Origin: Sinohyriopsis cumingii | Taxonomy: Eukaryota > Mollusca > Bivalvia > Unionida > Unionidae | Direction: 5' to 3' | Length of the DNA stretch: 64,000 nucleotides | NCBI GenBank assembly: GCA_028554795.2 | Contig: CM068835.1 | Coordinates: forward strand, 36,164,401 to 36,228,400 | Part shown: positions 16,301 to 34,300 of the stretch, in pieces | Position numbering within the stretch: position 1 is the first letter of the stretch | Layout: every line of letters starts with the position of its first letter | Translations under genes and position numbers: made by a program | The notes under the pieces: model-generated | What the model was told of the DNA's origin: nothing | The model's database searches: none | The model's input: the letters and a program-made list of their open reading frames with translations, nothing else

Positions 16301-19300
16301 GTACTCTGAGTAAGGTAAAGTTCTAATAATCATGAATTATCTAGAGCAAGGAAGCAACCTTTTGGTTGCTTCAAAGACTTGTTTGAAGATTTGATGAAAT
16401 ATGACTTTACCATCTGACTTGAACAGAAACACCCATCATCTAAGTGTGATATACTTTTGAGGTAGTAAGTCGTGTTGCTGTGAGTTGATGGGAATGAATG
16501 TGTATTTCAGCAAAAGAAATCTCTTTTTCCTGTAATGCATCAGTAGATTTCAGACTGGTACCCATTCCCAGTGCTGCATTGAATAACTGATGTTACTATT
16601 CAGATACTTGTAGCTTGTATACCAGTTGGCTTTTTTCCACCTTGTTGAATTACTAAGCTACATAACCCTTCTCATAGAATCACTAAAGAAATATTCTGGA
16701 AAAAAAATAATAAAACCATAATAGAAACTGAAGTTACTGGACATCTATGTTATCTACATGTATTGATAATGTTATCTTACCTATTGGATGAAACAGCAGC
16801 ATGTTTTTGCTTAAAGTGATTTATAAGATTAGATGTCATGCCACTGCAAAACAATTTGAATTATCCGAGTTGCATTTTTCTGTCCTGTCATAGGCATTAG
16901 TATGTGCTGCTTATTTATTCTAAATTAATCTTTACGATTTCTGAATTAATTTCAAAATGATCAAATGCTACTCCTGCTATAAGCCATAGAATTACATTGC
17001 AGAATGGTAAAATACCTTTCATTATTTGGAACTTCCTGTTTTACTAAAGCTGATTCAAAATCTTGTATCAAGTTACCTACATGGAAGAAGACTAGGATAC
17101 TATCTAGTAAAGAGTTATATTTTTAACTGTAAACATAACTTGAATAAAAAAAAAGTTGTTCTTAGTCTTGTCTTATAAACATCAAAATCTATCTAATTAC
17201 ACTGGTCAACAGTGAAATCATTACTGACTTGAAAAGGCCCTAATCTGTAGTATTTTGGTGTGCTGAACACGAATATAACCGTGAAAAATTTATATTGGCT
17301 CTCGTTTTGAAGATATTCATATACCTCATTTTCTATGTTTCACTGTGTAAATTTCTCCAGTAGGACTGCAGCAACATCCGGAATAATGATGTAACATTGC
17401 ATAATACCATCATGCTCACGTCATCCACAGTTGATTGCATCATTTTCTGATGCAATGCAATACTAATGCCATGCGGCTGCTGAAGTAAGTTGACGTCAGC
17501 AGTGTACTATACATGTGTAGGCCTATTATACTAATGCCAGGCGGCTGCTGAAGCTGACGTAAGCAGTGTACTATATAAAGCCCAATCAGATAGGTTCAGC
17601 ATTTAAAATATTTTAGACGTTGTGCGAGACAGTTCAAGCTACTGTTACATAAAACTTATTATTTTATCCATTTACGTACAATAAAGAACAGTAATGCCTC
17701 GAAAGTGTGTTAATACCGCGGACAATTTTTGCTATATTTGTGGGGAAGTGACATTTGCCAACCAGAAGAAAAGTATCAATTCTCAAGTGAAGAAGGCATA
17801 TCATCTTTACTTCAGATGCAAGGTTGGTGACCAAGACAAGCCTTGGGCTCTGCATATATGCTGTGCTACATGTACAACACAGCTTTCACAGTGGTTGAAT
17901 TGCAAAAGGTCATCAGTGCCGTTTGCAGTCCCAATGGTGTGGAGAGAGCATAGCAACCACCTAAATGACTGTTACTTCTGCTTGGTTCCTCCTCTTTCCG
18001 GCGGAATAACGAAGCGAAAGAAGTCGAGAATAGTCTACCCAAACATTCCGTCTGCATTGAGACCAGTTCCACATGGTGAGGGACTTCCTATTCCAGAACC
18101 TCCAGCAGAATATTCTCTTGATTCGTCTGACGAAGACAAAGGTGAGTCGACCTGTTCTTCTCCTGGTCCATCAGCATGCAGTGATCCAGATTTTCACTGT
18201 GGTGCATCATCAACCCCACACAGAATAACACAGGAAGAACTAAATGACCTGATTCGTGATTTGGACTTATCAAAGAACAAGGCAGAATTGCTAGGATCAA
18301 GACTCCAACAATGGAATCTTCTAGAAGAAGATGTCACAATTACTGCATATCGAAAGCGCCACCAGCAATTGGAGCCTTTCTTCAGAAAGGAAAGTAATCT
18401 GATATTCTGTTCCGATATTGAGGGCCTCATGAATGCTTTAAAAATCACTCATGACCCACAAGAATGGAGACTATTTGTGGACTCTTCGAAACTGAGTCTC
18501 AAGGCTGTGCTTTTGCACAATGGAAACATTCTTCCATCTATTCCAGTAGCGTATGCTGTCCACATGAAAGAGACATACGATAACTTAAGGCAGCTACTGA
18601 ATTCCATTGAGTATAACAAGTACAGCTGGCACCTCTGTGGTGATTTGAAGGTAGTTGCCCTTTTAATGGGACTGCAGCAAGGATATACAAAATACATGTG
18701 TTTCTTATGCGAGTGGGATAGCCGAGCAAGGGAAATGCACTACATGAGGAAGGAATGGACTCACAGGCAGAATGTAGCCATTGGAGAGAAGAATATCCAA
18801 CACCCAGCTCTGGTTGAGGCTCAGAAAATCTTGCTACCACCCTTTCACATCAAACTAGGTTTGATGAAGAACTTCGTGAAAGCCATTGACCGGACTTTGC
18901 CAGCATTCCGATACCTGCATGAAAAATTCCCTCGACTCAGCGAAGCAAAGATTAAAGAGGGAGTTTTTGTGGGTCCTCAGATTCGAGAGCTTTTCAAAGA
19001 TGACCGGTTCAACAACTTGCTGGAAGGTGACGCGAAACAAGCATGGAATGCTTTTCGCCTAGTTTCTACAAACTTCCTCGGAAATGTTAGGGCAGAAAAC
19101 TATAAGGAACTAGTAGAAGACATGTTGATGAAGTATAAGAAACTTGGCTGCAATATGTCTCTAAAGATTCACTTCCTTCATTCCCATTTGGATTTCTTTC
19201 CTAGCAACTGTGGTATTGTTAGTGATGAACATGGCGAACGTTTTCATCAAGATATCGCAACAATGGAACAAAGATACCAGGGAAAATGGTCCACTACAAT

Positions 19301-31300: not shown

Positions 31301-34300
31301 ACCTTGTATATCTTGGGTATAGTTCAAAGAACCTTTAATTCCCATTATTTTGGTATATGATTGATAGCACTGGTCAACAGTGAAATCATTACTGACTTGA
31401 AAAGGCCCTAATCTGTAGTATTTTGGTGTGCTGAACACGAATATAACCGTGAAAAATTTATATTGGCTCTCGTTTTGAAGATATTCATATACCTCATTTT
31501 CTATGTTTCACTGTGTAAATTTCTCCAGTAGGACTGCAGCAACATCCGGAATAATGATGTAACATTGCATAATACCATCATGCTCACGTCATCCACAGTT
31601 GATTGCATCATTTTCTGATGCAATGCAATACTAATGCCATGCGGCTGCTGAAGTAAGTTGACGTCAGCAGTGTACTATACATGTGTAGGCCTATTATACT
31701 AATGCCAGGCGGCTGCTGAAGCTGACGTAAGCAGTGTACTATATAAAGCCCAATCAGATAGGTTCAGCATTTAAAATATTTTAGACGTTGTGCGAGACAG
31801 TTCAAGCTACTGTTACATAAAACTTATTATTTTATCCATTTACGTACAATAAAGAACAGTAATGCCTCGAAAGTGTGTTAATACCGCGGACAATTTTTGC
31901 TATATTTGTGGGGAAGTGACATTTGCCAACCAGAAGAAAAGTATCAATTCTCAAGTGAAGAAGGCATATCATCTTTACTTCGGATGCAAGGTTGGTGACC
32001 AAGACAAGCCTTGGGCTCTGCATATATGCTGTGCTACATGTACAACACAGCTTTCACAGTGGTTGAATTGCAAAAGGTCATCAGTGCCGTTTGCAGTCCC
32101 AATGGTGTGGAGAGAGCATAGCAACCACCTAAATGACTGTTACTTCTGCTTGGTTCCTCCTCTTTCCGGCGGAATAACGAAGCGAAAGAAGTCGAGAATA
32201 GTCTACCCAAACATTCCGTCTGCATTGAGACCAGTTCCACATGGTGAGGGACTTCCTATTCCAGAACCTCCAGCAGAATATTCTCTTGATTCATCTGACG
32301 AAGACAAAGGTGAGTCGACCTGTTCTTCTCCTGGTCCATCAGCATGCAGTGATCCAGATTTTCACTGTGGTGCATCATCAACCCCACACAGAATAACACA
32401 GGAAGAACTAAATGACCTGATTCGTGATTTGGACTTATCAAAGAACAAGGCAGAATTGCTAGGATCAAGACTCCAACAATGGAATCTTCTAGAAGAAGAT
32501 GTCACAATTACTGCATATCGAAAGCGCCACCAGCAATTGGAGCCTTTCTTCAGAAAGGAAAGTAATCTGATATTCTGTTCCGATATTGAGGGCCTCATGA
32601 ATGCTTTAAAAATCACTCATGACCCACAAGAATGGAGACTATTTGTGGACTCTTCGAAACTGAGTCTCAAGGCTGTGCTTTTGCACAATGGAAACATTCT
32701 TCCATCTATTCCAGTAGCGTATGCTGTCCACATGAAAGAGACATACGATAACTTAAGGCAGCTACTGAATTCCATTGAGTATAACAAGTACAGCTGGCAC
32801 CTCTGTGGTGATTTGAAGGTAGTTGCCCTTTTAATGGGACTGCAGCAAGGATATACAAAATACATGTGTTTCTTATGCGAGTGGGATAGCCGAGCAAGGG
32901 AAATGCACTACATGAGGAAGGAATGGACTCACAGGCAGAATGTAGCCATTGGAGAGAAGAATATCCAACACCCAGCTCTGGTTGAGGCTCAGAAAATCTT
33001 GCTACCACCCTTTCACATCAAACTAGGTTTGATGAAGAACTTCGTGAAAGCCATTGACCGGACTTTGCCAGCATTCCGATACCTGCATGAAAAATTCCCT
33101 CGACTCAGCGAAGCAAAGATTAAAGAGGGAGTTTTTGTGGGTCCTCAGATTCGAGAGCTTTTCAAAGATGACCGGTTCAACAACTTGCTGGAAGGTGACG
33201 CGAAACAAGCATGGAATGCTTTTCGCCTAGTTTCTACAAACTTCCTCGGAAATGTTAGGGCAGAAAACTATAAGGAACTAGTAGAAGACATGTTGATGAA
33301 GTATAAGAAACTTGGCTGCAATATGTCTCTAAAGATTCACTTCCTTCATTCCCATTTGGATTTCTTTCCTAGCAACTGTGGTATTGTTATTGATGAACAT
33401 GGCGAACGTTTTCATCAAGATATCGCAACAATGGAACAAAGATACCAGGGAAAATGGTCCACTACAATGCTGGCTGACTACTGCTGGACACTCCTCAGAG
33501 ATGCTCCCGAACAGCTGTACAAGAGACAGGCGAAGAAATCTAAGATGTAGTCAATGACTTGATTTTTTATAGGTAGGCTATTACAGTTGACCTTTTACTA
33601 TTGGAATGCATTTCGTTATGTAAACATTAATTTCTTGCAGATTACAAAAAAACCAGAGCCAATTTTGCAATTTGACTGTCATATTCGTGTTCAGCACATA
33701 AAAATTGATAAGAATTGACTAATTTTATTTCAGTAACATGACTTTTGTAAAAATTTGTTGTCCAGTGTAGGTGTAATATGTATTATAGAGTATACAGCTT
33801 GGCCTTACTCCAGATGTGCACCTTTCAAAAAAGTGCTAGCTCCACTTGGTCATTTTCACTTCCTGAACTTCAGAGGTAAATTGTATATAAAAACGAGCCG
33901 ATAATTTTTTTTTTACATTTTATATATTTGGTAATTCATTCATTGCACTTTCAGAAGCTGGTATTGTCTAGTTTGGCGAATCATTTCCCCAATTTTGATA
34001 GCTGCGTAGAATAGTGTACTCTAGACAAATTCAGGCTGATTTTTGGAGCACAAGGGAGCAGTCATTTTAGTTAGCAGTGTGCTTAGATCATTTACAATTT
34101 CCAAAAGTACAATATCCAAAGAAATATCAGCCACATTACATTAAAGTAGCTTAGAGGTATGCCAACATTCTCTCCACTGTGCATGTTTTAAATGCAAACA
34201 ACTTCACCTTACATATGTCACTCTCTGAAAAGTATATAATAACTTGTGAGTGCTCCCTTAAGTGTGCTCTGACAATGTCATTAACATTTTCCCCCATCAT

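Follow-up and report, generated by a model that had tools for sequence, protein, structure and literature searches.

Two sister copies of a probable Chapaev3-type transposon within TRAPPC3 of Sinohyriopsis cumingii, members of a large near-identical family

How do two almost identical copies of a DNA transposon come to lie in a single gene, and what do they tell us about the age and mobility of their family? These questions are raised by a 64,000-nt stretch of the genome of the bivalve Sinohyriopsis cumingii (assembly GCA_028554795.2, contig CM068835.1, positions 36,164,401–36,228,400; hereafter "the window"), in which a sequence-only reading had noted two intact copies, here termed A and B, and had proposed very recent transposition of a family probably still mobile. 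Our follow-up indicates that the element is very probably of the Chapaev3 type (CMC transposons), that it rose to ~5,100 copies in one recent burst, and that A and B are sisters, most likely the product of one local transposition.

Self-comparison of the window bore out the near-identity of the two copies, each of which measures 2400 bp, with no indel and only three substitutions between them (0-based offsets 614, 925 and 2022). Their flanks are unlike each other and their 3-bp target site duplications (TSDs) distinct (TTA for A, TAG for B), as had been read. The copies share the same orientation at a spacing of 11.8 kb, and the predicted 562-codon gene is complete and uninterrupted in both. 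Of the "perfect" termini, the identity between A and B was upheld, whereas the terminal inverted repeat (TIR) itself is short and imperfect, comprising 12 bp with one mismatch (CACTGGTCAACA vs. CACTGGACAACA; 11/12). A subterminal inverted repeat of 57 bp joins element positions 53–109 with 2282–2338 (77% identity).

The host gene is TRAPPC3. A PDB search with its last exon, which possesses both a splice acceptor and the stop codon, recovered TRAPPC3 chains (best E 1.3e-15); further exons were placed in the window using human TRAPPC3 as the query. Exons of this one gene flank A as well as B, which sit in two separate introns, in sense orientation, with no located exon broken.

Size and age of the family

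A genome-wide search with the transposon, the check suggested by the sequence-only reading, was strongly positive. In the 2.90-Gb assembly (1,138 contigs), the left end, the right end and a mid-ORF (open reading frame) 24-mer were found at 5,106, 5,087 and 5,100 places, respectively, with up to three mismatches, compared with no place for any of the three reversed-pattern controls. The family thus numbers about 5,100 nearly identical copies, which at 2400 bp each would total ~12.2 Mb, or 0.42% of the genome; the first DNA search, in which the best 40 of 223 candidates were scored, gives merely a lower bound. As ends and mid-ORF sequence occur in near-equal numbers, internally deleted derivatives appear to be rare. 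No sizeable older layer of the family, up to ~12% divergence, was seen with the 24-mer, whose search tolerates 12.5% mismatch.

Most copies are full length. Exact matches in the first 49.5 Mb of contig C1 were paired, using the 100 left ends listed and those 94 of the 100 right ends listed that lie below 49.54 Mb; a listed right end was assigned to 94 of the 100 left ends. Spans of exactly 2400 bp accounted for 73 of the 94 pairs and spans of 2295–2402 bp for 90; one pair spanned 1540 bp and three exceeded 8 kb, two of them by reusing the right end of a neighbour. We fetched 69 distinct copies, distinguished by their flanks, and among the 64 spanning the full element both 12-bp ends were intact throughout. 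Four of these 64 (L028, L032, L042 and L073) are full-length and clean-ended, yet lack a matching 3-bp duplication, possibly owing to copy–copy recombination or flank deletion.

Divergence was estimated in two ways. An exact 120-mer occurred at 4,223 places, which, set against 5,100 copies, yields 0.0016 changes per site; 15 C1 copies carried 77 substitutions in 35,300 bases relative to the family majority, or 0.0022 per site. A mean divergence of 0.16–0.22% translates to an age of roughly 0.5–0.7 million generations at a mutation rate of ~3e-9 per site per generation, a typical insect value. The small difference between A and B is due to a late jump and is no guide to how old the family is.

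Sampled copies were mostly open-framed. The 562-codon frame was kept in 12 of the 15 C1 copies, which are not a random sample but consist of five partial ones (from element position 141, from the start of C1, motif-picked) and ten from five close pairs; a sixteenth, L061, with a 91-bp internal deletion and truncated at element position 1987, was omitted from divergence and ORF counts. In-frame changes in these 15 copies (36 nonsynonymous, 15 synonymous, one stop) look neutral against an expected 0.70:0.26:0.04, a ratio based on a transition weight of our choosing. The frame was likewise kept in 51 of the first 54 copies, a sample chosen by likeness to A (mostly best matches by DNA or protein) and hence enriched for A's variants.

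Class of the element and its predicted transposase

According to PMC4079192, Chapaev or Chapaev3 elements are recognised by CAC…GTG ends, by a TWA target that lies between A and T, and by three protein motifs: C(2)C, LH and H(4)H. Here, all 64 of the fetched copies that span the element have CACTGG…CCAGTG ends. A 3-bp TSD was found in 51 of 54 copies, with TWA in 35 of the 51, a preceding A in 41 and a following T in 43; with ten C1 copies added, the figures are 60/64 for the TSD and 42/60 for TWA. TWA between A and T is therefore a strong preference rather than a rule, from which the TAG of B and 15 others deviate. The family-majority protein contains CFLC at 336, PPLH at 382–385 and HGERFH at 513–518, supplying the C(2)C, LH and H(4)H motifs.

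Ends, target and motifs are those of the Chapaev3 families Merrow, Garfield and Conan, and full-length Garfield and Merrow elements measure 2,289–2,455 bp and the transposases of the group 556–562 aa (PMC4079192), compared with 2400 bp and 562 aa here. Judged from such sequence features (termini, A-TWA-T preference, motifs and size), the element fits among the CMC cut-and-paste transposons as a member of Chapaev3. Differences concern the single exon (two in Merrow and Garfield, one in most other Chapaev3), the ~5,100 copies (Table 1 of PMC4079192 peaks at 281 or ">254") and the rarity of deletion derivatives, as opposed to the miniature inverted-repeat transposable elements recorded there in tuna, silkworm and lizard. 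A literature search by titles, starts of abstracts and passages, with Repbase outside its scope, retrieved no Chapaev family of comparable size.

Three other classes were checked through one diagnostic feature each. Transib elements duplicate 5 bp of target, and 51 of our 54 copies have a 3-bp duplication. PIF/Harbinger elements share the TWA target and are marked by a Harbinger-type DDE domain, to which no Pfam match was obtained. EnSpm/CACTA elements carry the Transposase_21 domain named in PMC1636069, and this domain, too, was without match.

The motifs suggest a DDE fold for the transposase, with D263, D317 and E512 as motif-picked candidate catalytic residues. All three are present in L066, and L065 has N at D263; these two loci represent an older Chapaev3-like family, left out of the family counts, and are 94.7% alike. 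They resemble the A/B family in 28–55% amino acid identity by segment, PPLHIKLGLM and GERFHQD motifs and, by eye, CACTRTGTAAC ends and a TAA duplication, but differ in their broken frames and a longer TIR of ~120 bp. The motif used to find this older family hit 57 places, but ~8 of these hits are to A/B-family members that have mutated. Phage records gave no match, four stretches in viral contigs fitted a short pattern with none encoding a relative, and Rfam at gathering thresholds gave no match.

Relative to the family majority, the proteins of A and B each depart at five residues: P53L, M75V, P86H and L384F in both, G41R in A only and S510I in B only. L384F came to light when a motif search designed to exclude the family matched its majority instead (5,008 places, including a few from the older family), A itself carrying the substitution. 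It turns the conserved LH motif of both copies into FH, so that their open frames are no proof of function.

This altered motif is one of several results that count against the proposed assignment. A Pfam scan of the transposase returned no family up to E 10, a PDB sequence search only two meaningless matches (E 1 and 2), and a fold model from the single sequence, with a mean pLDDT of 38, gave no information. Non-TWA duplications in 16 of 51 copies contrast with the TWA reported for all Chapaev3 examined in PMC4079192. In addition, a first-pass protein search produced 9,565 candidates, of which the best 77 were scored, and relatives beyond the census patterns may exist.

Sister pairs and local transposition

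Departures from the family majority number 12 in A and 11 in B, ten of them common to both and distributed from position 65 to 2287. A private 37-mer containing two of the shared substitutions matched the genome exactly at just two places, A and B, which are each other's closest relatives. An exact 31-mer with the 2033T variant had just 23 genome matches; we initially considered that variants might be reticulate or arise by recurrent mutation, but abandoned this, as the choice of sample enriches for A's variants.

Sisterhood within one gene is most likely explained by one local jump, and other neighbours were compared in this light. Five close pairs were sequenced out of 11 C1 pairs less than 50 kb apart. 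One of them, L074/L075 (15 kb apart, TSDs TAT and TAA), is identical over all 2400 bp, sharing all eight departures from the majority, and its private 41-mer occurs at exactly two places in the genome; another, L070/L071 (7.3 kb apart), has three variants in common. Two of the five close C1 pairs thus have at least three variants in common, vs. 1 of 2,340 other pairs (hypergeometric P 1.1e-5, a guide only, since copy pairs are not independent). Local transposition fits this neighbour-pair pattern best, and the sharing in both pairs implies that transposition continued after the main burst. The sole exception among the 2,340, L013/L050 on C8 (~31 Mb apart), shares four variants including an inserted T and may represent a small sub-lineage.

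Not all neighbours conform, and the following points tell against local hopping. Three of the five close pairs, among them the closest at a separation of 253 bp, lack any shared variant, and 1529A>G, common to L070 and L071, recurs at three further places. Clustering of copies along C1 is weak: seven gaps below 15 kb were observed vs. 3.0 expected (P 0.03), with P values of 0.08, 0.13, 0.36 and 0.35 for gaps below 5, 30, 50 and 100 kb, respectively.

The claim of very recent transposition is sustained by the ~5,100 near-identical copies, the unique sister status of A and B and a second neighbour pair identical over its full length. Present mobility is plausible, but the mean distance of copies from the family majority equates to several hundred thousand generations at a typical insect mutation rate, and of the five amino acid departures in each of A and B, one lies in the LH motif. 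Accordingly, we take seriously, while leaning towards the opposite, the view that the burst is over and that A and B are relics of a family that recently lost its activity. The mean divergence, the neutral-looking coding changes in the C1 copies and L384F would all agree with such a loss; conversely, the identical L074/L075 pair, with its eight shared departures, points to a jump well after the burst, and the frame is still kept in 12 of 15 C1 copies.

Two further explanations address the A/B pair itself, and both appear improbable. Independent insertions might have been homogenised later by gene conversion between neighbours, which close direct repeats such as A and B can undergo; the ten shared variants, however, would require a conversion tract over nearly the whole element, and nothing is shared within the two pairs sequenced at closest range (253 bp and ~1.1 kb), the opposite of what distance-dependent conversion would produce. 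To a similarly small degree we credit a rare donor elsewhere, lost or unassembled, that reached the same gene twice by chance: sister status by itself leaves the donor site unfixed and the assembly is split into 1,138 contigs, but the private 37-mer has no third exact match in 2.9 Gb, and sharing goes along with closeness at L074/L075 and L070/L071 as well. That A and B are an assembly duplicate, as two long, nearly identical repeats might suggest, is next to inconceivable given their different flanks, TSDs and TRAPPC3 introns and the separability by flanks of all 69 fetched copies.

Remaining features of the window and implications of the family

Beyond the transposon and its host gene (Table 1), the window harbors a dispersed, SINE-like (short interspersed nuclear element) repeat of ~125–260 bp, whose copies are 89–94% alike, two with trinucleotide tails. 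One minisatellite-like array lies inside a TRAPPC3 intron and the other three downstream of the gene. Of the 231 other window ORFs of at least 55 codons, 10 were scanned against Pfam; three of these produced four weak matches, none of which reached the curated cut-offs. The end of one minus-strand ORF (243–521) resembles the C-terminus of hAT transposases.

Table 1. Coordinates of features in the window and of the older family (C1 loci)
Feature	Position	Strand	Basis or remark
Copy A of transposon, 2400 bp	17200–19599	+	self-comparison, genome DNA search
TSD TTA, left of A	17197–17199		right copy 19600–19602
Left TIR of A, CACTGGTCAACA	17200–17211	+	
Left subterminal inverted repeat of A	17252–17308	+	element 53–109, pairs with 2282–2338 at 77%
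Two ~50-bp direct repeats of A, upstream of ORF	17460–17575	+	element 261–312 and 329–376, 87%
Predicted transposase ORF of A, 562 aa	17694–19382	+	single exon
Right subterminal inverted repeat of A	19481–19537	-	
Right TIR of A	19588–19599	-	
Copy B of transposon, 2400 bp	31368–33767	+	self-comparison, genome DNA search
TSD TAG, left of B	31365–31367		right copy 33768–33770
Predicted transposase ORF of B, 562 aa	31862–33550	+	
TRAPPC3, most upstream exon found (end approximate)	11721–11819	+	window search with human TRAPPC3
TRAPPC3 exon (ends approximate)	20661–20762	+	window search with human TRAPPC3
TRAPPC3 exon	24556–24735	+	window search with human TRAPPC3
TRAPPC3 last exon with stop codon	34572–34691	+	PDB match, splice acceptor seen
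ORF	243–521	-	no Pfam match
SINE-like dispersed repeat copies	9608–9855, 20047–20298, 22361–22617, 54218–54342, 59748–60003		
Two perfect (AT)46 tracts, ~2 kb apart	55950–56041, 58097–58189		
Minisatellite-like arrays, units ~42–140 bp	23333–23598 (in TRAPPC3 intron), 45943–46345, 46665–47001, 63236–63701		
L065, older Chapaev3-like family	C1:7315800–7318700		
L066, older Chapaev3-like family	C1:9510900–9513800		

How might the family have grown? In the mechanism that we propose, the predicted DDE-type transposase of 562 aa would recognise both sets of inverted repeats, terminal and subterminal, and cleave at CAC/GTG. The ends would then be inserted, with a stagger of 3 bp, at A-TWA-T targets, a preference seen directly in the insertions. 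A single jump of ~14 kb inside the TRAPPC3 locus would then have made the A/B pair, the donor copy being kept or restored in the process. Copies may be gained during such local jumps, perhaps by movement from replicated into unreplicated DNA, as with the maize element Ac. Were gap repair often interrupted, more deletion derivatives would be expected than the few seen. We tentatively raise, as a rather unlikely scenario, that a recently arrived Chapaev3 element reached ~5,100 copies by replication-coupled local hops instead of error-prone gap repair, and hence left few deletion derivatives. If so, individual jumps would be recorded in the parent–daughter pairs that the genome preserves.

An autonomous DNA transposon is usually represented by a small number of intact copies alongside many short derivatives. 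The present element is of a known kind; its scale, its cleanness and its local-hopping signal are unusual. Mariner-2_DF of the fire ant (PMC6307670), an autonomous cut-and-paste element of another superfamily, likewise expanded recently, with little diversity and some copies identical; it counts 857 copies of at least 60% length and has demonstrated germline expression and polymorphism. A family that combines thousands of near-identical, mostly full-length copies with traceable sister pairs and no detected older layer would allow jump distance, mode of copy gain and escape from silencing to be measured from a single assembly, and an active Chapaev-type transposase might be sought among its members, which are candidates for supplying one.

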